A DNA stretch of 64,000 nucleotides from Erysipelotrichaceae bacterium (GTDB lineage Bacteria; Bacillota_I; Bacilli_A; Erysipelotrichales; Erysipelotrichaceae): NCBI GenBank assembly GCA_017432005.1, contig JAFRKA010000016.1, positions 1-64,000 on the forward strand. The letters run 5' to 3'. The position numbers were made by a program, and so were the translations under genes. Within the stretch, counting starts at the first letter, position 1, and every line of letters starts with the position of its first letter. Shown here one piece after another: positions 26,103 through 49,089 of this stretch. The notes under the pieces were generated by a model, which saw nothing but the letters and a program-made list of their open reading frames with translations, had not been told where the DNA came from and did not search any database.

Positions 26103-26117
26103 AGAAAGGATAAAGAT

Positions 26118-27503: not shown

Positions 27504-27514
27504 ATCGGAGCACT

Positions 27515-28351: not shown

Positions 28352-28358
28352 CACTTTT

Positions 28359-28389
28359 TTGACACGTAAAAAAAGAGCAGAAATATTAT
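28359..28389 (+). promoter_or_regulatory. Promoter of the sensor-MFS/phosphatase module
   Basis: A perfect -35 TTGACA (28359-28364) and a TATTAT box (28384-28389) separated by 19 bases, overlapping a TATAAA. The long spacer makes the exact -10 uncertain. It lies right after the amrS stop codon. Confidence 0.5.
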
Positions 28390-28425
28390 AAAATAAGATA
28401 GTAAATATACAGGAGGGCTTATACA

Positions 28426-29559: not shown

Positions 29560-29565
29560 AAAGTT

Positions 29566-32478: not shown

Positions 32479-34120
32479 GAAATACAAATCAATCGGCAGA
32501 TCACTGCTGGTAGGCTGTGCCATCTTTATCCTGCTGGTATGTATCCTGCTGGGTATCTTCGGTTTTGTTACCTACTATCGCGGCATGATCGACAAGTATC
32601 AGGGCTATATCAGAGACGTCATGCAGCTGGCGATGACCGAGATCGATGCCGACGATATGCAGAACTGTGTCAGCACAAAGACCAAGTCTGAAAAATTCGA
32701 AGAGACTCAGGCTTTCCTTGATCGTATCAAGGAGAATTTCGATATCGAATTTATCTATATCATCGAACCGCTCAACACCAACGAGACAGACAACGTCCGT
32801 AACGTCATGGTCGGTATCACGGCCGAAGAAAGAGTCATCGACTATGATTACTATTCTGTTGAACTGGGAAGTCTGACCGGTGAAGACTATTCTGCCAAGG
32901 TTGCAGGACAGTATCTCGAGGGTATGAACAAAGACGGGATCAGCTATTTCACAAACAAGACTGAATATGGCTATGACTACACCGGTATCACTCCGATCAA
33001 AAACAAGGCCGGAAAAGCCATCGCTGTTCTGGGTGTCGATGTCTCCATGGCTGAGATACAGAGTGTCTTTATGAGATATCTGCTGATGCTGGGAGCTGTT
33101 ATCCTGGTGCTGGCAGCAGCAGCTGTCGGTATCATGTACAACTGGCTGCAGAACCGTGTCATCGATCCGCTCAAGAGACTTGAAGAGACATCAGTAAGCT
33201 TCGTAGAAAGCTCACGTACCGCTGAACATCCAAACGATCTCAGGATCATCGATCAGAACATCAAGACCGGCGATGAAATGGAATCACTCTCTGATTCCAT
33301 GATGAAGATGTTTGCCGACATGAAGAGATACATGAGCGATCTGGTCACCGTCACCAAGGAAAAAGAGAGGATCGGAGCCGAGCTGAATGTTGCCACCAAC
33401 ATTCAGGCTGACATGCTTCCAAGGATCTTCCCGGCTTTCCCGGAAAGAGAAGAATTCGAGATCTATGCTTCAATGAATCCGGCTAAGGAAGTCGGTGGAG
33501 ACTTCTACGACTTCTTCATGCTGGATGACAATCATATAGGTCTGGTCATGGCTGACGTTTCCGGTAAAGGTATACCGGCTGCTCTGTTCATGGTGATTTC
33601 CAAGACTCTGATCAAAAACAGAGCGATGATGGGCGGAGGACCGGCTGAGATCCTGGGCTTCGTAAATGAACAACTGTGTGAAGGCAATGCCGCTGAAATG
33701 TTCGTCACTGTCTGGTTTGCGATCATCGATGTCCAGACCGGTAAAGGTATGGCGGCCAACGCCGGACACGAACACCCGGTACTGCGTCACAAAGACGGAG
33801 CATATGAACTGATCGAATACCGTCATTCACTGGCTGTTGCGGCTTTTGATGGAGCTGTCTTCAAAGAGCACGAATTCCAGCTTGAACCAGGCGATACGAT
33901 CTTCGTCTATACTGATGGTGTTCCGGAAGCTACCAATGCGAATGGTGAACTGTATGGAACCGAAAGAATGCTGAAAGCACTGAACAACAATCTTGATTTA
34001 AATGTCAACCAGCTCTTGCCGGCCGTCAGAAAAGATGTCGATGAATTCGTCGGTGAAGCTCCACAGTTCGATGACCTGACGATGATGGGCTTCTACTACA
34101 AAGGACCTAAATCAAAATAA
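32468..34120 (+). CDS. Membrane sensor with SpoIIE/RsbU-type PP2C phosphatase domain
   Basis: 550 residues. A membrane helix (~12-37) and another (~203-225) flank an extracellular sensor of Cache type. A HAMP-like linker follows, then a PP2C domain from ~300. All metal-binding motifs are intact: GGDFYDFF (~342), MADVSGKGIPAALFM, VYTDGVPEAT and FDDLTMM. This family dephosphorylates serine/threonine on anti-sigma antagonists such as RsbV or SpoIIAA. No STAS antagonist or anti-sigma factor is visible in the window, so its target is unknown. It overlaps the sensor-MFS gene and ends before a terminator. Confidence 0.9.
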   Translation: MMNEKYKSIGRSLLVGCAIFILLVCILLGIFGFVTYYRGMIDKYQGYIRDVMQLAMTEIDADDMQNCVSTKTKSEKFEETQAFLDRIKENFDIEFIYIIEPLNTNETDNVRNVMVGITAEERVIDYDYYSVELGSLTGEDYSAKVAGQYLEGMNKDGISYFTNKTEYGYDYTGITPIKNKAGKAIAVLGVDVSMAEIQSVFMRYLLMLGAVILVLAAAAVGIMYNWLQNRVIDPLKRLEETSVSFVESSRTAEHPNDLRIIDQNIKTGDEMESLSDSMMKMFADMKRYMSDLVTVTKEKERIGAELNVATNIQADMLPRIFPAFPEREEFEIYASMNPAKEVGGDFYDFFMLDDNHIGLVMADVSGKGIPAALFMVISKTLIKNRAMMGGGPAEILGFVNEQLCEGNAAEMFVTVWFAIIDVQTGKGMAANAGHEHPVLRHKDGAYELIEYRHSLAVAAFDGAVFKEHEFQLEPGDTIFVYTDGVPEATNANGELYGTERMLKALNNNLDLNVNQLLPAVRKDVDEFVGEAPQFDDLTMMGFYYKGPKSK

Positions 34121-34137
34121 GAAAGCGATTATGAATC

Positions 34138-34170
34138 AAAGAGGGTGCAAGATGATGCATCCTCTTTTTC
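34138..34170 (+). terminator. Terminator after the phosphatase gene
   Basis: Twelve-base arms AAAGAGGGTGCA / TGCATCCTCTTT (one G-U pair) followed by TT and a C-interrupted T run. Confidence 0.85.
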
Positions 34171-34220
34171 TATTTGCTGAAAAAGCGCTAAAATATTGGT
34201 AATATAGAACGAATTTATCC

Positions 34221-35642
34221 ATGAATCAGAACCGTGTAATCAAACTGTCATTCATCGTCGTTATCGTCAGTTTCCTGCTGTCGACAGCTCTTTCGATCGG
34301 TTCATTACACTATATGGCTCTACGCAATCAGCAGGAACTCAACAGAGTGCTGGCTGCTCAGATCTATGACACGATAAGTATCGAACTTAGTGAGCCGGTA
34401 GTCATTGCCAGAACGATGGCCAATGACCGTTTCCTGATCGATATGCTGGAAAAAGAAGATCAGGTGAGTGAAGAAGAAGCTGCCAAGATAATAGAGGATT
34501 TCCTTTTAGGTATCAGAAACGGTTTTGATCATGAGTCGTCATTCCTGGTTTCTGAAAAGAGCAGACGTTATTACACTTACAGTGGTATCTACAAGATCAT
34601 CGATCCTGAAAATGATGTTCGTGACAGCTGGTATCCTAAATTTATTTCATCCATTCAGGATTATGATCTGGATGTCGATATCGACCAGACTCATCAGAAT
34701 ACCTGGACAGTTTTTGTCGATGCCAAGATAAACAACAAAAGAGGAGATCTGCTCGGTGTATGCGGCGTCGGTTTTCACATGAAGAAGAGCCAGGAACTGT
34801 TTAATTCGCTGGAAGAAGAATACAATGTGAAGATCAATCTGGTCGATCCTAATCATCTGGTACAGGTCGATTCAGATCTTGAAAATATCCAGAAAGTCTA
34901 TCTTGATGATATCGATCTGGAAAAAGCCTACAGTAACGAGTATATCTATCAGGATCTGGGCGGCGGACGTTATGCCGTAGTCAAGTATCTTGAAAGCATG
35001 GACTGGTTTCTGGTCATCAGAAGTAACGGTACACAGATCGGAAGCCAGTATTTAGGTGTTATCCTGCTGAACGTCCTGCTGTTTGGCCTGGTCATGGGCA
35101 TCCTGGTATTTGAGACCAGAAAGATCATGAGAAAGACAAACGACCTGACGGATGCTTCATTCAGAGACAAGAATACCGGTCTGCTCAACAGGAGAGCATT
35201 TGAAGAAGACAAGAACAGCATGAACGACAAGCCTCTGCATGAGGATCTGGTCTATCTGATCGCCGATGTGAATGGCTTAAAAGCTGCCAACGACACGATC
35301 GGACATCACGCCGGTGATGAACTGATCAACGGTGCAGCAAGCTGTCTGACTTCTGTTTTATCAGATTATGGCAAGATCTACAGGATCGGTGGCGATGAGT
35401 TTGCGGCTATCCTGAATATTCCTAAAGATAAACTGAAAGACATACAGGAAAAGCTTGATAAGGCATTCAATGAATGGTCAGGTGAAGAAGTAAAGGAACT
35501 CAGTGTGTCCTGCGGATATGCCGTATATCGTGAGCATCCTTCCGAGTCACTGAGCGGTTTGAGCAAGATCGCTGATGAACTGATGTACAACGCTAAGGAA
35601 CAGTATTATGTAAGTTCCGGCAAGGATCGTCGCAGAAGATAA
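34221..35642 (+). CDS. Sensor diguanylate cyclase (Cache-type sensor plus GGDEF)
   Basis: 473 residues. Two membrane helices (~10-32 and ~280-300) enclose a ~245-residue extracellular sensor of Cache type (SSFLVSEKSRRYYTYSGIYK, VCGVGFHMKKSQELF). The cytoplasmic GGDEF domain begins at NTGLLNRRAFEEDK and has IADVNGLKAANDTIGHHAGD and RIGGDEF, so cyclase activity is expected. The start is preceded by a TAATAT box only 15 bases upstream and no Shine-Dalgarno site, leaving a leader of about eight bases. It is monocistronic and converges on the propeller protein gene. Confidence 0.92.
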   Translation: MNQNRVIKLSFIVVIVSFLLSTALSIGSLHYMALRNQQELNRVLAAQIYDTISIELSEPVVIARTMANDRFLIDMLEKEDQVSEEEAAKIIEDFLLGIRNGFDHESSFLVSEKSRRYYTYSGIYKIIDPENDVRDSWYPKFISSIQDYDLDVDIDQTHQNTWTVFVDAKINNKRGDLLGVCGVGFHMKKSQELFNSLEEEYNVKINLVDPNHLVQVDSDLENIQKVYLDDIDLEKAYSNEYIYQDLGGGRYAVVKYLESMDWFLVIRSNGTQIGSQYLGVILLNVLLFGLVMGILVFETRKIMRKTNDLTDASFRDKNTGLLNRRAFEEDKNSMNDKPLHEDLVYLIADVNGLKAANDTIGHHAGDELINGAASCLTSVLSDYGKIYRIGGDEFAAILNIPKDKLKDIQEKLDKAFNEWSGEEVKELSVSCGYAVYREHPSESLSGLSKIADELMYNAKEQYYVSSGKDRRRR

Positions 35643-35648
35643 AAAACA

Positions 35649-35674
35649 ACGGAGCTGTAAGAGCTCCGTTTATA
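35649..35674. terminator. Bidirectional terminator
   Basis: Stem AACGGAGCT / AGCTCCGTT around GTAAG, flanked by A- and T-rich tracts, between converging genes. Confidence 0.85.
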
Positions 35675-35685
35675 AACTTAACTGA

Positions 35686-36831
35686 TCAGGAACTGTGTTT
35701 CTCTACATCCAGTTCCATCTTTTGGAAGATAGTCGACCAGCGTCCCCAGTAACGGCCAAAGGCATAGCCTATAAGTAAGTCGTCACTTAGGGAGATGTGA
35801 CCGTCAGTGTTTTTGGATATGCCAAGGTTATGAGCGTAGTCTTCGATGTTGGTCTTTCTCGTTGTAACAGAAGAGAAATTCTTGCCGTCATCTGATTCGT
35901 AAACGATGAGTCTTGATCCTTCAGACATCCTATATTCGATGGAGAAGGCCAGGAAGGAATCTAGTTCATCACAATAGACGACATCCAGTGAATCATTATT
36001 ATCGAACGGACAGACCGGACCTTTTTCTCTGATGGTCAATGGCCAGTTTTCAGTGAGATCAGCCTTGGCCAGATGGGTACTACCGCCGTTGGTATCAAAA
36101 TAAGTATAGTAGATGAACAGGTCATCATCACGGATGACGAAACTCACTTCACCGATGCCCCAGCCGTTTGGATCACCATCATATTTGATGATCGGTTCAG
36201 GATATCCGCCCCAGCCTTCACCATTCCATTTCTCATATGGACCGTCAGGATTTTCACTGCGGGCGACAAAGGCAGAGTTGTTGTAGCCTTTTCGGCCGGA
36301 ATCGGCTGTAGAAGTATAGGCCAGATAGTAATAACCGTTGAAATATACGACACCCGGATCACAGACCGAGCAGCGGTCTTTCGAACCTGAAGTCGGTCTT
36401 AAGACGATCCTTTCACCGGACCAGTTCTCACCGTCATAATGACGGTAACGGATCCAGTCCCATTCAGTGCTGTTATTGCCCGGGGAAGAGAACCAGGCGT
36501 CCATCGTTCCGTCTTCATATTTCATGATCGAAGGTCCGTAACGGTAGGCTCCTGAATTGGCAGTGGAATAGATGATAGTTCCTTCTTCTTCGATCTCTGC
36601 TTTATAGACCAGATAGGAATCAGACTGTTCATTCATCTGTTCGACGGTAAGCGGGAGTTTGAACGTTTTGTCGATCGAATTCATCGACAGTATCGCTGCT
36701 GCCAGAGGATCTCCGGGAATGAAACTGCCTTCATCATTCTTTTCGGCGAAGATCGAGGCGACATTGAATACCACCAGAAAAGCTTCAACTATTATAAACA
36801 GATGTAACATTGGTTTTCTGTCGATACTCAT
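35686..36831 (-). CDS. Membrane-anchored five-bladed beta-propeller glycosidase-like protein
   Basis: 381 residues. A single N-terminal hydrophobic segment (~8-29, LFIIVEAFLVVFNVASIF) acts as signal or anchor. The rest has repeated aromatic strands typical of the GH43/GH32-like propeller clan: AYRYGPSIMKYEDGTMDAWF, CDPGVVYFNGYYYLAYTST, GEVSFVIRDDDLFIYYTYFD. Acidic residues in these blades may be catalytic, but the exact family is unclear and it could be a non-catalytic glycan binder. The gene has no ribosome site, and a TAAAAT box lies six bases before its ATG. It is divergent from the ROK gene, 45 bases away. Confidence 0.75.
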   Translation of the reverse strand: MSIDRKPMLHLFIIVEAFLVVFNVASIFAEKNDEGSFIPGDPLAAAILSMNSIDKTFKLPLTVEQMNEQSDSYLVYKAEIEEEGTIIYSTANSGAYRYGPSIMKYEDGTMDAWFSSPGNNSTEWDWIRYRHYDGENWSGERIVLRPTSGSKDRCSVCDPGVVYFNGYYYLAYTSTADSGRKGYNNSAFVARSENPDGPYEKWNGEGWGGYPEPIIKYDGDPNGWGIGEVSFVIRDDDLFIYYTYFDTNGGSTHLAKADLTENWPLTIREKGPVCPFDNNDSLDVVYCDELDSFLAFSIEYRMSEGSRLIVYESDDGKNFSSVTTRKTNIEDYAHNLGISKNTDGHISLSDDLLIGYAFGRYWGRWSTIFQKMELDVEKHSS

Positions 36832-36837
36832 ATCTAT

Positions 36838-36843
36838 ATTTTA
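36838..36843 (-). promoter_or_regulatory. -10 box abutting the propeller gene start codon
   Basis: TAAAAT on the minus strand, six bases from ATG 36831, in a TA-rich stretch that also holds TATAAT on the plus strand for the ROK gene. Confidence 0.35.
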
Positions 36844-36876
36844 TAATATTAGTAATGAAATTTACGGAGAAATACC

Positions 36877-37770
36877 ATGAAACTGTTATGTGTCGATGTC
36901 GGCGGTACAAGTGTCAAGCACGGTATCATCGATGAAGAGCTGAATATCACAGAAAAAGGCCGTTTTGTGCCTGACAGCACAAGCCTGGAGGCTTATGTCG
37001 AAGCATTGGGACAGCTGTATGACCGCTATAGAGGGGAAGTTGAAGGCGTGTCTTTTTCGATGCCGGGTATTATAGATCCCAAAAGCGGTTATTTCTATAC
37101 CGGAGGTGCCTATGACCGTATAGTTCATGATGTCGATCTGAAGAAACTGCTGGAGGATAGGACAGGTGTTCCGGTAAGTGTAGAAAACGATGCCAAGGCT
37201 GCCGCCTATGCGGAACTTGGTTACGGATGTCTGAAGGATATCGATAACGCGGTGATCATGACGCTGGGTCATGCGATAGGCGGCTGTCTGATCTTTGATC
37301 ATAAGATCGTTTACGGTAAGCATTATTCGGCAGGTGAATTATCATTCGTCAATGTCGATTATCACAGCCTGGATTTTGGGGAGACTTTTGCGGGCAGATG
37401 CGGGGCACACGGTCTGATGGTCAAGGTACAGCAGAAGTTAGAGACTGAAGAAGAATTAAGCGGAACACAGATCTTTGAGCTGGCTAATGAGGGTAATGAA
37501 AAAGTGCTCGAAGCACTTAAGGAGTTTGCCTATGAACTGTGTATCCAGATGTATAATCTGCAGGTCACATTTGATCCGGATGTGTTCGCTTTAGGCGGAG
37601 GAATCAGTTCACAGAAGGTTTTATATGATCTGATCGAAGATGGCTTCGACAGGATGGAACAGGAACTGTTTTATTTCGTAAGAAGACCGAAGGTCATAGC
37701 CTGCCGTTTCGGCAATGATGCGAACATGATCGGTGCTTTCCACAAGTATCATCTGGATCACGATCAGTAG
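36877..37770 (+). CDS. ROK-family sugar kinase or regulator
   Basis: 297 residues, ATG behind ACGGAG. It has the ATP-binding start CVDVGGTSVKHGIID, the catalytic region VSVENDAKAAAYAELGYG (Asp is the usual base) and the second phosphate loop ALGGGISSQK. There is no DNA-binding domain, so a kinase for glucose, N-acetylmannosamine or a similar sugar is likely. The zinc-binding cysteine set is reduced to RCGAHG. It converges on the PRD regulator and their 3' ends overlap by seven bases; a role in supplying phosphorylated sugar to the nearby catabolic operon is possible but speculative. Confidence 0.88.
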   Translation: MKLLCVDVGGTSVKHGIIDEELNITEKGRFVPDSTSLEAYVEALGQLYDRYRGEVEGVSFSMPGIIDPKSGYFYTGGAYDRIVHDVDLKKLLEDRTGVPVSVENDAKAAAYAELGYGCLKDIDNAVIMTLGHAIGGCLIFDHKIVYGKHYSAGELSFVNVDYHSLDFGETFAGRCGAHGLMVKVQQKLETEEELSGTQIFELANEGNEKVLEALKEFAYELCIQMYNLQVTFDPDVFALGGGISSQKVLYDLIEDGFDRMEQELFYFVRRPKVIACRFGNDANMIGAFHKYHLDHDQ

Positions 37771-39647
37771 ACATAATAACGCAGGATGGCGAGTATTTCG
37801 CTGTCCGGAATAAAGATACCTAAGCGTTCAGATTCCTGATGCAGGTATTTTTTTATGGCTTCATACTGTTTTCGGTTCTGTCTGATCAGCTCTTCATCAT
37901 TACCCGGTTCGATGAATTCTTTCCGCTGCCAGCGGGGAACCGCCATCAGCACATGGGCATAGATACCCGAAACATTGCCGAAGGCTGCAGTCGGGATGCC
38001 TTTGGGATAAAGATCCGAGATCAGATAGAACAGGTTCATGGATACTTCTCCTAAGAGCGTACTAACCTGATAAGGGATGATGTTTTTGGCATCGTAGTAT
38101 TCCTTACGCGTCTCAAAGGATTCGTTCGCTTCAAGCTTTGTGTTCTCTTCTTCCAGGATCGATGAAGTTACGACTTCCAGTGAATCATCGAGCTGGATCT
38201 CGCTCTTGGCCAGCCAGATAGCTTCCTTGACTTTACTGATCTCGCTTTTCTGTAAAAGTGGAGAGATAACAACGTAGGGCTTACTGATATCCTGGATGGG
38301 GATCGTGGAGATCACGAAGTCGACGTTGTCGAGGATCCTGGGGTTATGACTGATGTTGTAGATCGAGCTCATGGAGACGATATGGATATCCGGAATGTTG
38401 TTGATGAGACGGGTGGCGAGCAGTTTTGAAGCTGAACGACCGGTATTGCAGACGACCATGACTTTTGTTTCCTGCATCTTCTCGACTTTATCGAAACTTC
38501 TCAGGAAGTATAAAGTAAGATAACCGACTTCATCGTCATCAAGTTTCAGTGGATAGAACTGCGTGAATTTCTGAGCAGCCGATTTGATCAGATTGAATTC
38601 ATTCGGATAGGAGCTTCTGATCTCATCCAGCAGCGGATTGTCTCTAGGCAGACCTGAACGGATCGCATCGATCGTACTCTTCAGGTGCACGAGCAGGTCG
38701 ACTCTTAATGTATCGGCATCATTGATCTGATACATGCCGGAACTGTTGACATAGTCGATCATCGTATCGACGGCTTCCGGCAGTCTGCTGTCAGGATCGA
38801 CTTCAGAAGTATTGGCAGAGTAGTCGGTCGAACCGCTCAGAAGATGTTTGAGGACATCGATCGCTTCTTTATTGAGATGGATACTGAAAAGTTCTTCAAG
38901 TGAAGAGGCGAGTTTGGCAAGCTTATCTTCTTTCTCATCGTTTCTGAAGATGTGAGATCGCTTGTTTTCCCTGGAGCGGCAGACGACGCAGTACAGCATG
39001 AAACTCAGAAAGAGGTGATGGGAGATATATAGGGCAAGATCGTTGGAGATATACTGCAGGGTCTGCTGGAGTTTGATCTCCTCTTCATCAGTGATGAAAT
39101 GATTGTCTTTACAGATCAGAGTATTATAGACGAGTTCTTCACTTTCCAGTCTGATCAGCTCTTCACAGCCTTTGATGATGTTCTTGAGCGTGCCGTCAAG
39201 GCGGTAACCCTTGTTCTGATGGCGGACAAGTTTCAGGTTGCGTTCTTTCATGGCTCGGTTGGCATATTGCACAGTTGAAATGATCGTACCTTTGGAGACA
39301 TCGAAAGTCTCACACAGATCGACGGTAGAAAGCGGTCCGTTAAGAAACAGGAAATTGAAAAGCAATATTATGGAACGTTGAGTATTGTCCAGATAAGGGA
39401 ACTCAGAATTCTTGAGGACTTTGTTCAGTTTGGAGGAGATCTCTTTGTCCGTGATGATCCGCATGCCCTGAGAAGGGATCCGGATGAATTCGATGTTCTG
39501 TTCCCGGAGATAGGAAGCTATCTCTTCGATATCGTTGCGGACCGTCCTTAAAGAGACGTTGTGTTTCTCCGCCAGCTGTCTGGCGGTGATGGCTATAGCG
39601 GACCTTTCCAGGTCTCTGATCATCAGTTTCTGGCGTCTATTCAGCAT
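37764..39647 (-). CDS. PRD-domain transcriptional regulator with EIIB-like domain (BglG/MtlR type)
   Basis: 627 residues from ATG 39647, preceded by AGGGGA. Order: a helix-turn-helix (LAEKHNVSLRTVRNDIEEI, residues ~25-45), a second Mga-like one (LCETFDVSKGTIISTV), two PRD domains (~165-400), an EIIB-like domain with the cysteine of VVCNTGRSASK, and a C-terminal domain of ~110 residues. PRD/EIIB regulators are normally controlled by phosphotransferase phosphorylation in response to sugar supply. It lies divergently upstream of the amidohydrolase-DgaE operon, which it probably controls. The EIIB loop is Gly-Arg-Ser rather than the usual Gly-Ile/Val-Gly-Thr-Ser. An HTH at the start favours a DNA-binding activator over an antiterminator. 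Confidence 0.88.
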   Translation of the reverse strand: MLNRRQKLMIRDLERSAIAITARQLAEKHNVSLRTVRNDIEEIASYLREQNIEFIRIPSQGMRIITDKEISSKLNKVLKNSEFPYLDNTQRSIILLFNFLFLNGPLSTVDLCETFDVSKGTIISTVQYANRAMKERNLKLVRHQNKGYRLDGTLKNIIKGCEELIRLESEELVYNTLICKDNHFITDEEEIKLQQTLQYISNDLALYISHHLFLSFMLYCVVCRSRENKRSHIFRNDEKEDKLAKLASSLEELFSIHLNKEAIDVLKHLLSGSTDYSANTSEVDPDSRLPEAVDTMIDYVNSSGMYQINDADTLRVDLLVHLKSTIDAIRSGLPRDNPLLDEIRSSYPNEFNLIKSAAQKFTQFYPLKLDDDEVGYLTLYFLRSFDKVEKMQETKVMVVCNTGRSASKLLATRLINNIPDIHIVSMSSIYNISHNPRILDNVDFVISTIPIQDISKPYVVISPLLQKSEISKVKEAIWLAKSEIQLDDSLEVVTSSILEEENTKLEANESFETRKEYYDAKNIIPYQVSTLLGEVSMNLFYLISDLYPKGIPTAAFGNVSGIYAHVLMAVPRWQRKEFIEPGNDEELIRQNRKQYEAIKKYLHQESERLGIFIPDSEILAILRYYVY

Positions 39648-39681
39648 TTTTGCGTCCCCTTTACCTGAAAAAACAGAATTT

Positions 39682-39696
39682 TGCACTAAGAGTGCA
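39682..39696. promoter_or_regulatory. Candidate operator, inverted repeat
   Basis: TGCACT AAG AGTGCA, a perfect six-base inverted repeat, 35 bases upstream of the regulator start. A TTGCAC half-site recurs at 39805-39810 in a similar GAATT context, nearer the divergent operon. Such repeats in the shared promoter region are plausible binding sites for the PRD regulator. Confidence 0.4.
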
Positions 39697-39865
39697 GATT
39701 ATCATACAGTTTCAGTATAACTTAATATGAAGTGAATAAAAAGGCATTAATCAGGACTTTCAGGCGTTTTTATATATCATTTTTCTTAAGATAAGTACAA
39801 AGAATTGCACCAATCAATGAAATAAAAACCGCTTTTCTTTGTATTTAACACCGGAGATAATGTAA

Positions 39866-39893
39866 TTGAAGAAAAAAGAACGCATTTTATTAA
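39866..39893 (+). promoter_or_regulatory. Candidate promoter of the amidohydrolase-DgaE operon
   Basis: TTGAAG (39866-39871), 16 bases, then TATTAA (39888-39893), about 30 bases before ATG 39924. The rest of the 39648-39923 gap is AT-rich with no other gene. The match is only moderate. Confidence 0.35.
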
Positions 39894-39923
39894 ACATAAT
39901 TGAAATATCGTACGGAGGTCAAA

Positions 39924-41045
39924 ATGGGAAAGCTGCTGCTGAAAAACGGATATCTGATCGACAAGTCAGAAAGACTTGTCAGATACAAGGCAGATGTCCT
40001 GGTAGAAGATGGTTATATTAGGAAGATCGCTGAAGGTATAGAAGATAAGGATGCGGAAGTCGTTGACTGCACCGGTCTCTATGTCGCACCGGGTTTCATC
40101 GATATCCACACGCATATCTTCAAAAGAAGCAAGTCGTTAGGCGTCGATGCGGACAGAGTCGGTGTGGAATCAGGTGTAACGACAGTCTGTGATGCCGGAA
40201 CGGCCGGACCGGAGACACTGCAGGAATTCATCGATACCGTCATCAAGCCGTCAAGGACCAGAGTCTTCTCGGGGATGCATTTCTCCAAGAGAGGTCTGGA
40301 GATCACTCCGGAAGCAGACGATGAAAGCAAATATGATTTCGATCTGGCGGAAAGAGTATATGAAGAAAACAAGAAATATATCTGTGCCATCAAGGCCAGA
40401 GCGTCAAATACGACAGTCGGTGAACTGGGCATCAAACCGATCCAGCAGGCTGAAGCATTTGCCAGAAAGATCGGATTGCCGCTATATGTCCATATCGGCA
40501 GAGCCTTGCCTTATATCGAAGAAGTTCTCGATACCTTAGGTGAAGGTGACATGATCACCCATACCTTCCATGGCAAGGAGAGCAACTGGATCCTGAAAGA
40601 CGGAAGGGTCAAACAGGAAGCATTGCGTGCCAGAGCCAGAGGAGTACTGTTCGATGTCGGACACGGTGAAGCTAGCTTCTCGTTCAAGACCGCGAAGATC
40701 GCCTTCCCGCAGGGTTTCCTGCCTGATACGGTCTCAACAGATCTTCATGCCCGCAACATCGATGGACCGGTCTATTCACTGACTCTGACGATGGACAAGA
40801 TGATGGCTTTGGGTATCACCCTGGAAGATGTGGTCGAGATGGTCACAGCCAGACCGGCACAGTACTTCAAGTTCTCTGTACCGATCGGCAAGATCAAAGA
40901 AGGCTATTGCGGTGATTTCACAATCTTCGAAGTCGAGAACGGTGAATATGAGTATCTCGATTCCGACAAGAATGAACTGAAGGGCACTACCAGGATCGTC
41001 GTTCATTATGCGATCGTTAACGGAAAAGTTGAGTTGAAGAAATAA
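39924..41045 (+). CDS. Dihydroorotase-like amidohydrolase/deacetylase (EF_0837-type family)
   Basis: ATG 39924 behind CGGAGG gives 373 residues. It is a metal-dependent TIM-barrel amidohydrolase with a complete ligand set: HxH at 62 and 64 (FIDIHTHIF), the bridging lysine 157 (CAIKARAS), His 190 (YVHIGRALP), His 213 (THTFHGK) and Asp 273 (VSTDLHARN). Relatives sit in operons with a PRD protein, the SFCGS protein, DUF4310-4312 proteins, a DgaE-type lyase and an aldolase, as here. The likely job is removing an acyl group from the imported substrate before ammonia elimination; the true substrate is unknown. First gene of the operon. Confidence 0.88.
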   Translation: MGKLLLKNGYLIDKSERLVRYKADVLVEDGYIRKIAEGIEDKDAEVVDCTGLYVAPGFIDIHTHIFKRSKSLGVDADRVGVESGVTTVCDAGTAGPETLQEFIDTVIKPSRTRVFSGMHFSKRGLEITPEADDESKYDFDLAERVYEENKKYICAIKARASNTTVGELGIKPIQQAEAFARKIGLPLYVHIGRALPYIEEVLDTLGEGDMITHTFHGKESNWILKDGRVKQEALRARARGVLFDVGHGEASFSFKTAKIAFPQGFLPDTVSTDLHARNIDGPVYSLTLTMDKMMALGITLEDVVEMVTARPAQYFKFSVPIGKIKEGYCGDFTIFEVENGEYEYLDSDKNELKGTTRIVVHYAIVNGKVELKK

Positions 41046-41046
41046 C

Positions 41047-41793
41047 ATGATCAAGAGAGAAGTAATCGAATCGATCGAAGAAGTACTGAAGATCGATGAC
41101 AGCATCAAAGAAGAGGCTGAAACGTATTCGCTGAAAGTGCTGGATTATCTGAATGAAAAAGGTGTCAGCTTTGATGAGAATACGGTCGTCGGGTTTCTGA
41201 ATCATCTGTTTGCGATGTTCCAGAGACTCGAGAAGGATGAGAAACTGCCGGATCTGGGAGATGAGATCCTTGATCAGATCGATCCTAAAGCGATCGGACT
41301 GGCAAAGGATTCACTCAAGATGATCGAGGATCTGAAGCAGGTTACTCTGGATAAAGCGGAAATAGCCCTTGTGGCGATTCATATTCAGAATGCATTACAG
41401 GAATCTGAAAAAGAAAGTGAGGAAGAAAAGAATATGGGTAGACCGATCGTTGTAATTGGAGATCGCATGGGAAAAGGCCAGCATGTCGCTGACGGTGTCG
41501 TCAAGGCCGGTGGTGAAGCTTATACGATCCCGGGCATGGCTGCTGATATGAAACTCGGCGATGTCATGAAGGAAAAGAATGCGGATCTGGGTATCAGCTT
41601 CTGTGGTTCGGGTGGTGCCGGTGCACTCAATGCCCAGAACAAGCACGGATACAAGTGCCGCTATGGCATGAGATCCATCGAAGAAGGCGAGAAGGCTGTA
41701 GCCGATGATATCGTCGCTCTGGGATTCGGTTTCATGGATAAGGAAGAGCTCGGCGAGAGGATCGTCAAAGCCTGGCTCAAGAAGAATCAATAA
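41047..41793 (+). CDS. Fused PRD-domain and SFCGS glycine-rich protein
   Basis: 248 residues. Residues ~1-115 are a single PRD domain with both regulatory histidines (FLNHLFAMFQRL and ALVAIHIQNAL). After an acidic linker (ESEKESEEEKN), residues ~130-248 are a glycine-rich protein with the signature LGISFCGSGGAGAL and a second cysteine in YKCRYGMRS. In Enterococcus and Aeromonas the two parts are, to my knowledge, separate genes (EF_0829 and EF_0830 type). Inside the frame an ATG at the junction (MGRPIVVIGDRMGKG) is preceded by GAGGAAG, so the SFCGS part may also be made alone. The SFCGS part may be the cytoplasmic partner of the two membrane proteins that follow. Function is unproven. Confidence 0.85.
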   Translation: MIKREVIESIEEVLKIDDSIKEEAETYSLKVLDYLNEKGVSFDENTVVGFLNHLFAMFQRLEKDEKLPDLGDEILDQIDPKAIGLAKDSLKMIEDLKQVTLDKAEIALVAIHIQNALQESEKESEEEKNMGRPIVVIGDRMGKGQHVADGVVKAGGEAYTIPGMAADMKLGDVMKEKNADLGISFCGSGGAGALNAQNKHGYKCRYGMRSIEEGEKAVADDIVALGFGFMDKEELGERIVKAWLKKNQ

Positions 41794-41795
41794 TC

Positions 41796-42086
41796 ATGGC
41801 TGAAAACAAATCTTCACTGAAGAAAATGGAAAAAGCTGTCGAGATCGAGGCTTATGGCAAGAACAGAAAAGAAGCCATAGGTACCGCTTTCGGCAAGATC
41901 AAGAATGAATCCTACGCTGCTGTAGGAGAGAATGAGGTTCTGGTCGATGTCCACGCTGTTGATGTCTATATCCTCGAAGAAGAGGAGAAAACAAAGATCC
42001 AGAAACTGTTCGGATTCTTCATGCCGCGGGAAGTCCAGGATTACCGCGTCAAGTTAAAGATCATCCTGGAAATCAAATATCTTTAG
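41796..42086 (+). CDS. DUF4312-family protein
   Basis: 96 residues, starting two bases after the previous stop, so translationally coupled. It is a small soluble alpha/beta protein: VEIEAYGKNRKEAIGTAFGK, then VLVDVHAVDVYILEEEEK and a C-terminal LKIILEIKYL. This family is known only from this conserved cluster (EF_0831 type) and has no assigned function. Its fixed place between the SFCGS protein and two membrane proteins suggests a cytoplasmic component of the same transporter, in the way EIIA/EIIB-like parts sit by their membrane domains. Confidence 0.85.
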   Translation: MAENKSSLKKMEKAVEIEAYGKNRKEAIGTAFGKIKNESYAAVGENEVLVDVHAVDVYILEEEEKTKIQKLFGFFMPREVQDYRVKLKIILEIKYL

Positions 42087-42135
42087 GATTTTTCTGCAAA
42101 CTGCAGTGAATCAATAGAAAACAAAGGAGGAAAAT

Positions 42136-42870
42136 ATGCTTACAATTCTTTTGAAGTCTCTGGTAATTGGTGCATTGGCCGGTGCTGCTGTTTCTGCCGG
42201 TGCGGCCAGAATGTTCCATGCTCCGGAGATTCAGGCAATGGGTGCATTTAGAACCTTAGGTGAATTAAATGCTTGTAAGGGGGACCCAGTTGCTCACTTC
42301 TCGTTTGGATTGGGATTCTACTTCTCATCTGCTGCTTCGGTTGTTGGATGTGGTGGTGTAACTCAGGATGTTGCACACAGAATCGTTCCAAACTGGGCTG
42401 CCGGTCTGTTACTGCTCAAGAACAAGAAGGTCGAAGAAACATTATATGATCCGGCCAAGATGATGCTGGTCGGTACAGTTGTCGGTGCTGTCGTATACAG
42501 CTCTCTGACTCTGCTGGCTTCTGCCGTTCCTGAAAAGTTATCTACTATCGCTGCCGGTGTTCTGACACCTGCTGCCAACAACATGGTCAACCTTGTCATG
42601 CCTATCCTGTTCTGGTTAGGTGCACTCGATGCAGGCAAGATCACAGGCGTCTGGGGCACGATCTTAGGCGGTCTCACACAGCTTATCATGGGCAATGCCG
42701 TTCCGGGTCTTGTTCTTGGTATCATCTGTGGTAAATCTATTGAAGAACACGGCTTCACCAAGATGGTCAAGATCATGATCGCCGTCATCGTCGCTCTGCT
42801 TCTCGTCATCGGTCAGGCTCGTGGATTCTGGGCAAAAGCTCTGGCTGCTCTGTCCGGATTTGGACTCTAA
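42136..42870 (+). CDS. DUF4311-family membrane protein, putative transporter subunit
   Basis: 244 residues, start behind AAAGGAGG. Six to seven hydrophobic segments are visible, with conserved-looking loops such as FHAPEIQAMGAFRTLGELNA, FYFSSAASVVGCGGVTQDV and ILTP-like helices around AANNMVNLVMPILFW. The protein belongs to a family (EF_0832 type) found only with DUF4310 and DUF4312 proteins. It probably forms one half of a two-subunit membrane carrier. No ATPase, no PTS EIIC signature and no MFS motif is present, so the energy source is unknown. Confidence 0.85.
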   Translation: MLTILLKSLVIGALAGAAVSAGAARMFHAPEIQAMGAFRTLGELNACKGDPVAHFSFGLGFYFSSAASVVGCGGVTQDVAHRIVPNWAAGLLLLKNKKVEETLYDPAKMMLVGTVVGAVVYSSLTLLASAVPEKLSTIAAGVLTPAANNMVNLVMPILFWLGALDAGKITGVWGTILGGLTQLIMGNAVPGLVLGIICGKSIEEHGFTKMVKIMIAVIVALLLVIGQARGFWAKALAALSGFGL

Positions 42871-42883
42871 GGAGGAATAAGAC

Positions 42884-43510
42884 ATGAAGAAATTACATGA
42901 ATTACTGATGAAAGAATATTCTTTCCCTCTCTTAACAGCTTTATTAGGTGCAGCTGTCTTCGCCGGAGGCTGCATGTTCCTGAATGACGGTTTCGGTCTG
43001 TTCAATGATGCTTCGCAGACTGCAATGCTGCTCGTCGGCAAGACTGAAGGTGAATGGACTACTCCTGTCGGCTACGCTGCAGGCTTCCTGATCGCCAGAG
43101 TCCTGGAAGGACCGCTGGTAGGTATCCTTGATATCGGTGGCTCTATGCAGACTGGTGTCGGTACAGGTATGGTCGCATTATGCCAGTCACTCGGTATGAC
43201 CTGGATCACTGAGAACTTCCTGGTATCTCTTATCGCTGGTGGACTTATCGGTCTCGTTATCGGTATCGTCATCATCGCTGTAAGAAAAGCTATGCCGGAA
43301 GGTATGTCTGCTTCAGGTACTGACATCATGATGGGTGTCGGTAACGCTGCCGGACGTTATCTTGGTCCTTTAACGATCTTATCTGCGATCAGCTACTCTA
43401 TCCCTTGCGGTGTGGGTGCTATCATCGGTTCCGTTATCATGCATAAGTTAGACAAGCCGATCATCGGTGGTGCTATCTTAGGCGCTATGATCGTCGGTGC
43501 ATTCTTCTAA
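42884..43510 (+). CDS. DUF4310-family membrane protein, putative transporter subunit
   Basis: 208 residues, start behind GGAGGAATAAG, 13 bases after the DUF4311 gene. About five hydrophobic helices alternate with glycine-rich loops (LEGPLVGILDIGGSMQTGVG, DIMMGVGNAAGRYLGP). It is the EF_0833-type partner of the DUF4311 protein. Paired small membrane proteins next to soluble partners and catabolic enzymes strongly suggest an importer for the pathway's substrate. The gene ends just before a strong terminator hairpin that separates it from the catabolic genes. Confidence 0.85.
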   Translation: MKKLHELLMKEYSFPLLTALLGAAVFAGGCMFLNDGFGLFNDASQTAMLLVGKTEGEWTTPVGYAAGFLIARVLEGPLVGILDIGGSMQTGVGTGMVALCQSLGMTWITENFLVSLIAGGLIGLVIGIVIIAVRKAMPEGMSASGTDIMMGVGNAAGRYLGPLTILSAISYSIPCGVGAIIGSVIMHKLDKPIIGGAILGAMIVGAFF

Positions 43511-43519
43511 GAAATAAAG

Positions 43520-43550
43520 AAAGATTGGAGACGATGTCTCCAATCTTTTT
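43520..43550 (+). terminator. Strong terminator-like hairpin inside the operon
   Basis: Twelve-base perfect stem AAAGATTGGAGA / TCTCCAATCTTT, CGATG loop, then T residues. It lies between the DUF4310 gene and the DgaE-like gene, with the next start codon only 12 bases downstream. It could lower enzyme expression relative to the transporter or act in an attenuation switch. Confidence 0.8.
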
Positions 43551-43562
43551 CAGGATTGAACT

Positions 43563-44672
43563 ATGGAAACAATTTACGAAAAAATAGGATTACAGAGAGT
43601 TGTCAATGCCAGCGGCCGTATGACTTACCTGGGCGTTTCGACTTTGTCAGATGAAGTTGCGAAAGCAGCGGTCGAAGGCGGTCAGAATTATGTCGTCATC
43701 GCTGATCTTATAAATAAAGCCGGAGAGCTGATCTCGACTCATACCGGAGCAGAAGATTCCTGCGTAACCTGCAGTGCTTCCGCCGGTATCGCGATCTCCA
43801 TGGCCGGTCTGATCTCCAAAGGCCAGCGGTCCATCATGAACCGTCTGCCTGATACGACAGGATTAAAGAATGAAGTCATCCTGCAGAAGGGTCATTCCGT
43901 GGAATACGGAGCTCCGATCACCACGATCATGAGACTGGGCGGTGCCGTACCTGTCGAAGTAGGCAATGCGAACCTGGTCTATCCGGAAGAGATCGAAGAA
44001 GCGATCGGTGAAAAGACTGTCGCCTTGCTTTACTGCAAGTCTCATCACTGTGTCCAGAAGGGCATGGTGTCACTGGAAGACATGATCGCGATCGCTCATC
44101 GACATGACCTGCCTCTGGTAGTCGATGCGGCTGCTGAAGAGGATATGCGCAAGTATGTGGCCATGGGTGCCGATCTGGTCATCTACAGCGGTGCCAAGGC
44201 TCTGGAAGCTACGACTTCCGGTTTCATCACCGGTAAAAAAGAATATATCGCCTATTGCAAGAAACAGTATTCAGGTATCGGCAGAGCCATGAAAGTCGGC
44301 AAGGAACAGATCATGGGTCTGATCGCGGCGATGGACCGTTATGACAATATCGATCACGAGGCTCAGGCTGAGGAACATCTGAAGACTGTCAATTATCTGA
44401 ATGAAGAGATCAACAAGATCCCGTACTGCCACGCCTCTTTACTGCAGGATGAAGCAGGAAGGAAGATCTACAGATCGAAGGTCACCTTTGACAAGGAATG
44501 CGGCATGACAGCCACTGAGATAAGCAATAAACTGAAGGAAGGCAACCCCTCCATCCACTGCCGTCCTAATCAGCTGAATCTGGGTGTCATCATGTTCGAT
44601 GTCAGACCACTGGTGAAGGGTGATACTGAACTTATCATTTCCAAACTCAAAGAGGTCATGAAAGGAGCTTAA
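43563..44672 (+). CDS. dgaE: DgaE-type PLP-dependent ammonia lyase
   Basis: 369 residues, SelA/SelA-like aminotransferase fold. The PLP lysine is Lys 212 in YSGAKALEATTSGF, with a preceding Asp in PLVVDAAAEE. NASGRMTYLGVSTLS at the start and SCVTCSASAGIAISMAG are family marks. In Salmonella, DgaE converts D-glucosaminate 6-phosphate to 2-keto-3-deoxygluconate 6-phosphate and ammonia; this homologue (EF_0838 type) probably performs the same kind of elimination on a related amino sugar acid. It follows a terminator hairpin and precedes the two aldolase genes. Confidence 0.88.
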   Translation: METIYEKIGLQRVVNASGRMTYLGVSTLSDEVAKAAVEGGQNYVVIADLINKAGELISTHTGAEDSCVTCSASAGIAISMAGLISKGQRSIMNRLPDTTGLKNEVILQKGHSVEYGAPITTIMRLGGAVPVEVGNANLVYPEEIEEAIGEKTVALLYCKSHHCVQKGMVSLEDMIAIAHRHDLPLVVDAAAEEDMRKYVAMGADLVIYSGAKALEATTSGFITGKKEYIAYCKKQYSGIGRAMKVGKEQIMGLIAAMDRYDNIDHEAQAEEHLKTVNYLNEEINKIPYCHASLLQDEAGRKIYRSKVTFDKECGMTATEISNKLKEGNPSIHCRPNQLNLGVIMFDVRPLVKGDTELIISKLKEVMKGA

Positions 44673-44673
44673 G

Positions 44674-45402
44674 ATGAATTTCTATAATGATCGTGTAATG
44701 CTTAATGTGCTTGGCGGTTCTCTGGAGAACGCCAAAGAAGTCTATGAAGCAGGTGAGAAACATGTACTGGTCGGTGTACTTTCCGCCAATTATCCTAACG
44801 TCGAAGAAGCGGTAAAGGATATGCAGAAGTATAATGAAGTGCTGGAAGGCAATCTGTCTGTCGGTCTGGGCGGAGGCAATCCGATGCAGTGGAAAGCTGT
44901 CGGTGATATCGCCAAACAGATCAAATGTAATCACTACAATCAGACGTTTACAGCTGTCGCCTATACCAGAGCCAATGTCGGCAATGATGAAGCGATCGTC
45001 AACTGTATGATGGCTCCGTGCGGTGAACCCGGCAAGATCAACATCTGTACCGGTCCTTTAAGCAAGGATGCCAAGAATCCGGCACTCGTCGATGTCGACA
45101 CAGCCATAGCTCTGGCTAAGGACATGGGTGCCTCTTCGATCAAGTTCTTCCCGATGCACGGTCTTGCCTGCAAGGAAGAGCTCAAGGCTCTGGCCAAGGC
45201 CTGTGCCGAGAATGATTTCATGCTGGAACCGACCGGTGGTATCGATCTGGAGAACTTTGAAGAGATCGTTGAGATCATCGTCGATGCCGGCGTGAAGAGA
45301 TTCATTCCGCACGTCTATTCTTCGATCATCGACAAAGAGACAGGCAATACGAGACCTGAAGATGTAAAGGCTCTGTTAGATATCATTAAGAAGCACGTCT
45401 AA
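44674..45402 (+). CDS. dgaF: DgaF-type 2-keto-3-deoxygluconate-6-phosphate aldolase
   Basis: 242 residues, ATG behind AAAGGAG. This family (EF_0839 type) splits 2-keto-3-deoxy-6-phosphogluconate to pyruvate and glyceraldehyde 3-phosphate. Visible features are VMLNVLGGSLENAKEVYEAG at the start, VGLGGGNPMQWKAVGDIA, the likely active lysine in SSIKFFPMHG and the barrel-closing EPTGGIDLENFEEIV. It follows the DgaE gene without a gap and its stop overlaps the start of the next aldolase (TAATG). Having both this and the Eda-type aldolase is unusual. Confidence 0.88.
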   Translation: MNFYNDRVMLNVLGGSLENAKEVYEAGEKHVLVGVLSANYPNVEEAVKDMQKYNEVLEGNLSVGLGGGNPMQWKAVGDIAKQIKCNHYNQTFTAVAYTRANVGNDEAIVNCMMAPCGEPGKINICTGPLSKDAKNPALVDVDTAIALAKDMGASSIKFFPMHGLACKEELKALAKACAENDFMLEPTGGIDLENFEEIVEIIVDAGVKRFIPHVYSSIIDKETGNTRPEDVKALLDIIKKHV

Positions 45403-46037
45403 TGTTTGAACAGCTCAGACAGACCGGTATAATCCCGGTCGTCAGTATCAATGATGCGGATAAGGCTGTACCGCTGGCTAAGGCACTCTACGAAGGCGGA
45501 CTTCACTGTATCGAAGTGACCTTCAGGACCAAAGCAGCAGCTGCTTCGATCAGAAAGATCAGAGAGAACTGTCCCGACATGTATATCCTGGCCGGAACGG
45601 TCCTTTCTCCTGAACAGGCCGATGAGGCCATGACTGCCGGAGCATCGCTGATCGTCGCTCCCGGTCTCAACCCCAAAGTTGCGAAGCACTGCAGTGAGAT
45701 GAATTATCCGTACATACCGGGCATCTGTACAGCCAGTGAGATAGAACAGGCTATGGACCTGGGTCTTAGGACTGTGAAATTCTTTCCGGCTGAAGCTTCA
45801 GGCGGAGTTAAGATGCTGGAAGCATTACATGCGCCATACAGAGATATCATGTTCATGCCGACCGGCGGGATAAGTTATGAGACAGCAGGAGAATATCTGG
45901 AAAAGGATTATATCCTGTGTATCGGTGGATCCTGGATCGCCAAGAGCGAGATGATCGACAAGGAACAGTTCGAACATATCGGAATGGCTGCAAAACAGGC
46001 AGCTGAACTGGTACGTTCAATCAGAATAAAGGAATAA
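45402..46037 (+). CDS. eda: KDPG / 4-hydroxy-2-oxoglutarate aldolase, Eda type
   Basis: 211 residues, a classical class I aldolase. It has the base-containing strand CIEVTFRTKAAAASI, the AGTVLSPEQADEAM loop, APGLNPKVAKHC and the Schiff-base lysine in TVKFFPAEASGG. It would split 2-keto-3-deoxy-6-phosphogluconate or a 4-hydroxy-2-oxo acid. The start overlaps the DgaF stop by one base. Since the DgaF gene should already provide this activity, Eda may accept a stereoisomer or a different carbon chain made in the same pathway. It is the last gene of the operon. Confidence 0.93.
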   Translation: MFEQLRQTGIIPVVSINDADKAVPLAKALYEGGLHCIEVTFRTKAAAASIRKIRENCPDMYILAGTVLSPEQADEAMTAGASLIVAPGLNPKVAKHCSEMNYPYIPGICTASEIEQAMDLGLRTVKFFPAEASGGVKMLEALHAPYRDIMFMPTGGISYETAGEYLEKDYILCIGGSWIAKSEMIDKEQFEHIGMAAKQAAELVRSIRIKE

Positions 46038-46071: not shown

Positions 46072-46710
46072 ATGATAAAAGCAATCCTGTTCGATTTTGA
46101 TGATACATTGGGAAACAGAGAATATGCGGCTTACAATCTCTATCGTGATCTGCTGAAGCCGTATTTTTCTGATGAGTTGCTGCTGGAAGCAGCGATCCAG
46201 GATACACTGGTCGCTGAACAGTACGGCAACTGCAATAAAGCCAATGTCCAGAAACAGATCGAAGAAAGATACAAAGTAAAATTCGATTTCGATCTGAAAG
46301 ACATCTGGGACAAACTGATCGGAAAATACCATCTGGCTTTTGATGATACGGTAGAGACATTGGAGTATCTGAAAAAGAAATATCTGCTCGGTGTCATCAC
46401 GAACGGTTTTATTACGACTCAGCATGAAAAACTTGATTCTGCCGGGATCACGCAATATTTCGATATGATCCTCACTTCAGAGGAAGCAGGTGTCACGAAA
46501 CCTGATCCTGCCATCTTCCGATGTGCAGCTGAAAGGATGGGCGTCAGACTCGATGAATGCGTCTATGTCGGAGATGTCTTCAGCAATGATATCTATGGAG
46601 CACTCAAAGCGGGCATGGATGCCGTCTGGATCTGGAAAAGAGGAGACAGACAGTGCCGCTATGATGTCAAAAAGATTGGAACACTTTCCGAGCTGATGAA
46701 GATGTATTAA
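46072..46710 (+). CDS. HAD-superfamily hydrolase, subfamily IA
   Basis: 212 residues. Motif I LFDFDDTLGN (Asp 8, Asp 10), motif II GVITNGF, motif III in VTKPDPAIF and motif IV VYVGDVFSNDIYGA are all present, with a helical C1 cap as in YjjG- or Gph-like phosphatases. It should remove phosphate from a small metabolite in the cytoplasm. No ribosome site stands at normal distance; AAGGAGG lies 28 bases upstream inside the hairpin. It may be co-transcribed with the operon by read-through. Confidence 0.9.
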   Translation: MIKAILFDFDDTLGNREYAAYNLYRDLLKPYFSDELLLEAAIQDTLVAEQYGNCNKANVQKQIEERYKVKFDFDLKDIWDKLIGKYHLAFDDTVETLEYLKKKYLLGVITNGFITTQHEKLDSAGITQYFDMILTSEEAGVTKPDPAIFRCAAERMGVRLDECVYVGDVFSNDIYGALKAGMDAVWIWKRGDRQCRYDVKKIGTLSELMKMY

Positions 46711-48312: not shown

Positions 48313-48434
48313 AGCTTTGTCCTGCCTTCAGGATTATTATATCCAAAATCACTGAACGGACCTAAAGCGACGATCTCCTGTTGTATCATAGAGTTATAAA
48401 GAGAATAAGAGATAATAGCCAGGAGGACCGATTT

Positions 48435-49085
48435 ATGCTTCGTTACCGGAAAGAGAAAGAAGAGATCGTCAGCCGTTTTCTGCGTCTTTATGACGCCGGC
48501 ATGATCAATATGTTTGAAGGAAACATCTCAATGAGGATGGATGACTGTGTACTGATCACCCCGTCACAGATGGAGAAGGATCAGATCACGGCCGAAGATG
48601 TCGTTGAGATCGATATGGAAGGAAGCAGACTGAATGATAACGGAAGATCTCCATCTTCGGAATACCGGATGCATCTGGCTATCTACAGACTGCGCGATGA
48701 TCTGAAAGCTGTTGTCCATACTCACTCACCATACGCAACGGCCTATGCGGTAGCCGGTATACCGATCAGCGTCAGTATGGCTGAGACCTATATGTTTTTT
48801 GGCGGTGAGATCCCGGTATGTTCATATGGTGCTCCGGGAACTGATGACATTAGTGCTGATTTCAGAAAATACTTCATCGATGAAGATAAAGACTCCGTAC
48901 TGGTCGGAAACCATGGAGCCGTATCCAGCGCCAGAACGCTGCAGGAAGCTTTCAGCAAAACGGAAGCGATCGAAAAACTGGCGATGATCGACAGTGAAGT
49001 AAGAAAACTGGGAAGCGAGAGAAGATTCACGGAAGCAGAAAAAGAAACACTGCTGAAGTTCTACAGAGAAAGAAAGGACAGGTAA
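48435..49085 (+). CDS. Class II aldolase/adducin-family protein
   Basis: ATG 48435 behind GGAGG gives 216 residues. The zinc ligands are in [13 protein letters not shown] (two histidines) and [12 protein letters not shown], with the catalytic acid in SSEYRMHL. The family includes L-fuculose-phosphate aldolase, 5-deoxyribulose-1-phosphate aldolase and MtnB dehydratase. Because mtnA follows at once, the likely substrate is 5-deoxyribulose 1-phosphate or 5-methylthioribulose 1-phosphate, giving dihydroxyacetone phosphate and an aldehyde. I cannot choose between aldolase and dehydratase from sequence alone. Confidence 0.88.
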
Positions 49086-49089
49086 GGAT

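Follow-up and report, generated by a model that had tools for sequence, protein, structure and literature searches.

Gene context of DUF4311 and DUF4310 in an Erysipelotrichaceae genome points to a possible Enzyme-II-like permease for amino sugar acids

Bacteria take up carbohydrates to a large extent through permeases of the phosphotransferase system (PTS), which have been studied intensively and fall into a handful of families. The Salmonella dgaABCDEF operon for D-glucosaminate (Miller et al. 2013, as cited in PMC9529869) works with a mannose-family PTS permease. The EF_0829-EF_0839/AHA_3910-3917 cluster (TIGR03577-TIGR03583) has the same families in the same grouping as the locus studied here. 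No paper naming DUF4310-4312 was found, and the literature found on SFCGS or on these EF genes was confined to E. faecalis fitness and expression screens. The locus lies at 37764-46037 of a stretch of 64,000 nucleotides, here called the window, which covers positions 1 to 64,000 of contig JAFRKA010000016.1 (assembly GCA_017432005.1, Erysipelotrichaceae bacterium). Instead of the mannose-family permease of Salmonella, its operon encodes PRD, SFCGS, DUF4312, DUF4311 and DUF4310, plus an amidohydrolase. The balance of evidence leans slightly towards these five proteins being an Enzyme-II-like permease served by the general PTS proteins and without detectable sequence similarity to known Enzyme II (EII) families. 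We infer the phosphotransfer steps, the transport itself and the substrate; the observations behind them are gene content, fixed gene order, conserved His, Cys and Arg residues, and the genomic linkage and co-occurrence with HPr and Enzyme I (EI). The features of the locus are as follows.

37764..39647, minus strand: PRD-containing transcriptional regulator, divergent from the operon, with HTH_11, Mga HTH and two PRDs (Pfam and NCBIfam)
39648..39923, no strand: divergent intergenic region, presumed operator/promoter by position only
39924..41045, plus strand: EF_0837-type amidohydrolase/deacetylase (PRK09237 above cut-off, TIGR03583 below)
41047..41430, plus strand: PRD domain, N-terminal part of a PRD-SFCGS fusion (PF00874, 1e-9)
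41434..41793, plus strand: SFCGS domain, C-terminal part of the fusion, RpiB/LacAB-like (PF14272, Gly_rich_SFCGS, 8e-50)
41796..42086, plus strand: DUF4312, small soluble protein, always between SFCGS and DUF4311 (PF14189, 3e-14)
42136..42870, plus strand: DUF4311, highly conserved polytopic membrane protein (PF14188, 6.5e-101)
42884..43510, plus strand: DUF4310, polytopic membrane protein (PF14187, 2.8e-70)
43563..44672, plus strand: DgaE-family pyridoxal phosphate (PLP) ammonia-lyase (TIGR01437 above cut-off; NF047797 1e-142, below cut-off)
44674..45402, plus strand: DgaF-type aldolase for 2-keto-3-deoxy-6-phosphogluconate (KDPG) (NF047796 above cut-off; KDGP_aldolase 8e-93)
45402..46037, plus strand: Eda, KDPG/KHG aldolase (TIGR01182 above cut-off; Pfam Aldolase 3e-70)
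46072..46710, plus strand: HAD phosphatase, starting 34 bp past eda

The operon genes from the amidohydrolase to Eda followed one another in the listed order with short gaps, and the five-part module was encoded by four genes. All gene families named in the first-pass annotation were present (Pfam, NCBIfam), and its assignment to the EF_0829-EF_0839/AHA_39xx families was right, the members here being somewhat divergent. All seven models TIGR03577-TIGR03583 were matched together. TIGR03577 (EF_0830/AHA_3911), TIGR03580 (EF_0832) and TIGR03581 (EF_0839) scored above the NCBIfam cut-offs. TIGR03578, TIGR03579, TIGR03582, TIGR03583 and the DgaE equivalog NF047797 remained below the curated values, so that the locus was classed as a divergent EF_08xx/AHA_39xx member. 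It differed from that cluster also in the fusion of PRD and SFCGS and in the divergent orientation of the regulator.

In the proposed scheme, phosphate would pass from phosphoenolpyruvate to EI and HPr, and from HPr to a PRD histidine in the place of EIIA. In the position of EIIB, the SFCGS cysteine would take the phosphate from this histidine and donate it to a sugar acid entering via DUF4311/DUF4310, which would stand in for EIIC. The entry product would be the 6-phosphate of a 2-amino-2-deoxy aldonate, or of an acylated or cyclic form, which the amidohydrolase could trim if needed. DgaE would deaminate the product to KDPG, and DgaF and Eda would split KDPG into pyruvate and glyceraldehyde 3-phosphate. 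The PRD regulator would sense the phosphorylation state, and HPr, sometimes with EI, would be supplied from the same operon in some relatives.

Gene order was compared in 89 loci. A scan of species genomes returned at least 594 stretches, at least 571 of them encoding relatives; 80 were retained and combined with nine loci from a first draw. The loci came from Bacillota, Fusobacteriota, Actinomycetota (Olsenella) and Proteobacteria. The order PRD-SFCGS-DUF4312-DUF4311-DUF4310 was kept in 87 of the 89, the exceptions being L018, without a detected stand-alone PRD, and L098, which was cut by a contig end. The amidohydrolase, DgaE, DgaF and the regulator were placed variably, either upstream, downstream or apart, and three loci (L040, L042 and L105) held the module and regulator with no DgaE, DgaF or amidohydrolase nearby. 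The fixed order beside mobile enzyme and regulator genes, and the existence of enzyme-free loci, single out the five proteins as a functional unit separate from the enzymes. The earlier proposal that DUF4310, DUF4311, DUF4312 and SFCGS form one system held, with the PRD added, as a module with features of an uptake system. Natural fusions were PRD-SFCGS (window and L027), amidohydrolase-PRD (L031, L043 and L048) and amidohydrolase-PRD-SFCGS (L032). The closest DUF4311 relatives among the matches listed were from two Erysipelotrichaceae metagenome-assembled genomes (MAGs), at 95-97%. One of them, an independent rumen MAG (L027), showed the same gene order and the same fusion as the window; in the other (L026), PRD and SFCGS were two overlapping frames. 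DUF4310 was present in 8/392 genomes drawn from the same phylum, including three that read TGA as Trp (Mollicutes-type). In three TGA-as-Trp genomes, DUF4310 (L022:7440-9119, L023:6960-8606 and L024:7003-8685) carried about 350 extra N-terminal residues resembling a long charged coiled coil.

Residue conservation suggested two candidate phosphocarriers. Among 89 PRD sequences, only H53 (98%), R60 (98%), E65 (88%), E105 (98%) and H112 (96%) exceeded 85%, which is the pattern that selection on phosphorylation would leave. His53 and His112 are the candidate phosphorylation sites. In SFCGS, Cys186 was invariant (100% of 88 sequences) and located in an almost invariant CGSGGAGA loop. The first-pass annotation had placed a possible PTS link in the SFCGS cysteines. 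A PTS link was corroborated by the conserved PRD histidines and SFCGS cysteine together with the HPr/EI linkage and co-occurrence; its restriction to the SFCGS cysteine was not, as the PRD is an equal candidate phosphocarrier. LacAB_rpiB was matched by 20 of 29 SFCGS members (best 5.7e-5) and DUF2620 by 17 of 29 (best 0.008). The window SFCGS reached 18.4 bits against LacAB_rpiB (PF02502), under the gathering score of 24.7, and was likewise below threshold for DUF2620. The CGTG loop of the genome's own RpiB-like protein aligned with the SFCGS cysteine loop. These similarities, together with the fusion to PRD and amidohydrolase in one locus, would fit a role of SFCGS as an RpiB/LacAB-like sugar-acid isomerase or epimerase acting after the transporter, with the cysteine as base and the PRD controlling an enzyme complex. 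We regard this as improbable, since SFCGS stayed with the membrane genes where all catabolic enzymes were missing (L040, L042 and L105), and had diverged outside the Cys loop, and since the related YhfU again adjoins a membrane gene.

Linkage to general PTS genes was found by two approaches. Clustering of neighbouring genes placed EI beside the regulator in seven loci. A direct search found EI linked in nine named loci, eight of Paenibacillus and one of Acidaminobacter, each with HPr; with the random-draw genome G582, where HPr and EI followed DgaF, there were ten cases of EI with HPr. HPr genes on the strand of the module were present in 18 loci, to which G582 is additional, and carried GLHARPA/GIHSRPA and NAKSI/NGKSI motifs. 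In 17 of the 18, HPr was within about 50 bp of the operon's EI, regulator or DgaF gene; in Alkaliphilus (L053) it was 843 bp downstream. In the various arrangements HPr preceded EI, the regulator and the operon, or preceded the regulator and a module lacking the enzymes; elsewhere it stood between the regulator and an enzyme block set apart, or followed DgaF. Spacings included HPr(-1)EI(191)REG, HPr(28)REG(71)PRD and DgaF(12)HPr, and the DgaF-HPr junctions showed slight overlaps or gaps of 12-20 bp. For 32 loci with known HPr counts, 0.46 HPr-linked loci were expected by chance and 8 observed (Poisson P 3e-8), a figure that overstates the evidence because of relatedness among the HPr-linked loci.

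Across genomes, EI was present in 40/40 carriers tested and HPr in 34/34 genomes of a second carrier set. As a background, 73 of 199 genomes (37%) from the phylum of Alkaliphilus had EI, as had 61% of the 77 carriers of the GntP gluconate permease among them. All three DUF4311 carriers in those 199 genomes, one of which was the centre of the draw, had EI. The co-occurrence is supportive rather than decisive, because many carriers belong to groups in which EI is common.

The two membrane proteins matched no known EIIC family and no solved fold. Invariant residues of DUF4311 were R25, E43, N45, D50, H54, H81, R82, N187 and R229, and conserved residues of DUF4310 were R72, E75, D83 and N154. Single-chain AlphaFold2 models were all-helical in both cases, with a pLDDT of 89 (good) for DUF4311 and 79 (moderate) for DUF4310. 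Comparison of both models with the PDB by two aligners gave nothing above the expectation for helical bundles, which does not by itself prove a new fold. Relaxing the Pfam comparison of DUF4311, DUF4310 and SFCGS members to E values as high as 10 still gave no EII model. The profiles of DUF4311 and DUF4310 were only weakly similar to each other (P 0.0017, probability 15%). A sub-threshold DUF4311-like match was seen in the E. coli control genome. The missing family and fold match would suit an exporter, channel or membrane anchor, with uptake left to another system such as a mannose-type PTS elsewhere in the genome. The first-pass annotation had stated that the mannose-type PTS is missing. This applied to the operon, where Pfam and NCBIfam detected no mannose-family PTS gene, and failed for the genome, which encodes one mannose-type EIIC (EII-Sor) about 130 kb away. 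That EIIC is unlinked, whereas the module was co-inherited with catabolic genes over several phyla with no other conserved transporter beside it. A role outside uptake thus appears highly improbable.

The likeness to Salmonella dga was in the DgaE- and DgaF-type enzymes and in the conserved 6-phosphate arginines. Salmonella DgaE acts on a 6-phosphate that was modelled near Arg-301, 332 and 346 (PMC9529869). R304, R334 and R348 of the window DgaE aligned with these arginines, and all three were 100% conserved in 81 relatives, as were two histidines and the PLP lysine. DgaE matched PDB 7lc0 with 1e-107. In the amidohydrolase, the metal-ligand His/Asp residues and the Lys position were invariant in 89 relatives. 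Its PDB relatives were 2ogj, 8wzy, 2ics and 8je0; 2ogj is the structure of Atu3266, an amidohydrolase relative that reportedly hydrolyses acetyl-(R)-mandelate. A 2-amino-2-deoxy aldonate, or a derivative that the amidohydrolase must hydrolyse, is the probable substrate. Recurrent neighbours besides the operon genes, namely HAD phosphatases and peptide ABC transporters, gave the only further hints on substrate.

A PfkB sugar kinase was linked in 3/89 loci (L067:4523-5551, L068:4524-5567 and L103:17509-18537). The ROK kinase at 36877-37770 in the window was considered as the missing kinase and rejected, being convergent and not conserved beside relatives. Given the conserved 6-phosphate arginines of DgaE and the rarity of a linked kinase, a substrate-phosphorylating permease would supply the missing step. 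So would an unlinked kinase, which is part of the main rival, in which DUF4311/4310 are an ordinary carrier, ion-coupled or other, and PRD, SFCGS and linked HPr/EI report the PTS state and switch carrier or regulator, as in inducer exclusion. PRDs are classic phosphorylation targets of HPr and EIIB, and the regulator of the operon, also a PRD protein, depends on HPr. The kinase in three loci and the lack of EIIC resemblance in DUF4311/4310 point in the same direction. By contrast, the PRD-SFCGS pair stayed with the membrane genes even where the regulator was elsewhere, no PfkB kinase was linked in 86/89 loci, and a dedicated EI with HPr exceeds what regulation should need. We consider such a carrier unlikely overall, while it deserves more weight than an isomerase or a non-uptake role. 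An Enzyme-II-like permease of unfamiliar parts is the most economical reading.

The yhf operon (E. coli K-12, L025; Bacilli loci L123-L134) may be another system built on this plan. Like the module, E. coli yhfY-yhfU-yhfT combines a stand-alone PRD, a cysteine glycine-loop protein and one membrane protein, with a PLP enzyme. YhfY, the stand-alone PRD, matched the module PRD with a hhalign E of 8e-13, and DUF2620, which is E. coli YhfU, was weakly related to SFCGS. YhfU adjoined YhfT in 11 of the 12 Bacilli loci, with a YhfY-type PRD close by. Profile comparison detected no relation of YhfT to DUF4311 or DUF4310, and no HPr/EI linkage was seen in the 12 Bacilli YhfT loci. Literature searches on DUF2620/YhfU and on the TIGR names turned up nothing about function.

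Several points weigh against a permease that phosphorylates its substrate. No EIIC likeness of DUF4310/4311 was found by sequence or fold, and the mannose-type EIIC elsewhere in the genome could offer another entry route. PRDs are known as targets of regulation and not as carriers. The SFCGS cysteine may be a catalytic base because SFCGS resembles the RpiB/LacAB isomerases. HPr/EI linkage was missing from most loci, concentrated in Paenibacillus and Brevibacillus, and could serve the PRD regulator only. L018 was the sole complete module examined in which no stand-alone PRD was detected beside SFCGS. To these are added the three loci with linked PfkB, and the score of DgaE against NF047797 (475 bits, cut-off 600). 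Because DgaE falls under this D-glucosaminate-6-phosphate equivalog cut-off, the stereochemistry of the substrate is left free. The module resembles PTS Enzymes II in the EI/HPr dependence suggested by linkage and co-occurrence and in candidate His and Cys residues in the EIIA and EIIB places; it differs in that DUF4311, DUF4310 and SFCGS members match no EIIA, EIIB or EIIC family. SFCGS, in turn, shares the CG-x-G loop and aligned cysteine with RpiB/LacAB; it is only weakly similar to these isomerases and differs in its membrane-module context. That the module represents a PTS permease class outside the known EII families, with the PRD in the role of EIIA, an RpiB-like cysteine protein in that of EIIB, DUF4311/DUF4310 as a membrane translocator without recognised relatives and YhfY/YhfU/YhfT as a second branch, is plausible, falling somewhat short of probable. 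If true, the list of PTS permeases would gain a class built from a PRD and a cysteine protein that resembles isomerases, and PRDs could act as carriers and not as sensors only. It would also give a testable role to several DUF families of rumen, gut, insect-gut and soil bacteria, and perhaps to E. coli YhfT/YhfU.

Among the flanking features, the regulator had been described as a PRD/EIIB protein. The PRD part was recovered as two Pfam copies next to the HTH; the EIIB-like part was visible solely as a CNTGRSASK motif, and at the threshold applied the EIIB family models gave no match. Translation of the regulator probably starts at ATG 39647, GTG 39686 also being possible, and that of the amidohydrolase probably at 39924. 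No sigma-70 site was clear above background in 39648..39923. The HAD phosphatase at 46072..46710 is possibly the last operon gene, its membership being uncertain; a different HAD recurred near 11 relatives of the operon. The second copy on contig C20 proved not to be a paralogue: C20 is redundant, with 99.975% identity across 19.9 kb. The redundancy spans 25210-45095 of the window and 1-19886 of C20 in the same assembly (G000) and is probably a strain variant. Further downstream, at 48381-50163, a class II aldolase-type gene was followed by mtnA (methylthioribose-1-phosphate isomerase), resembling a 5-deoxyribose/methylthioribose salvage operon.

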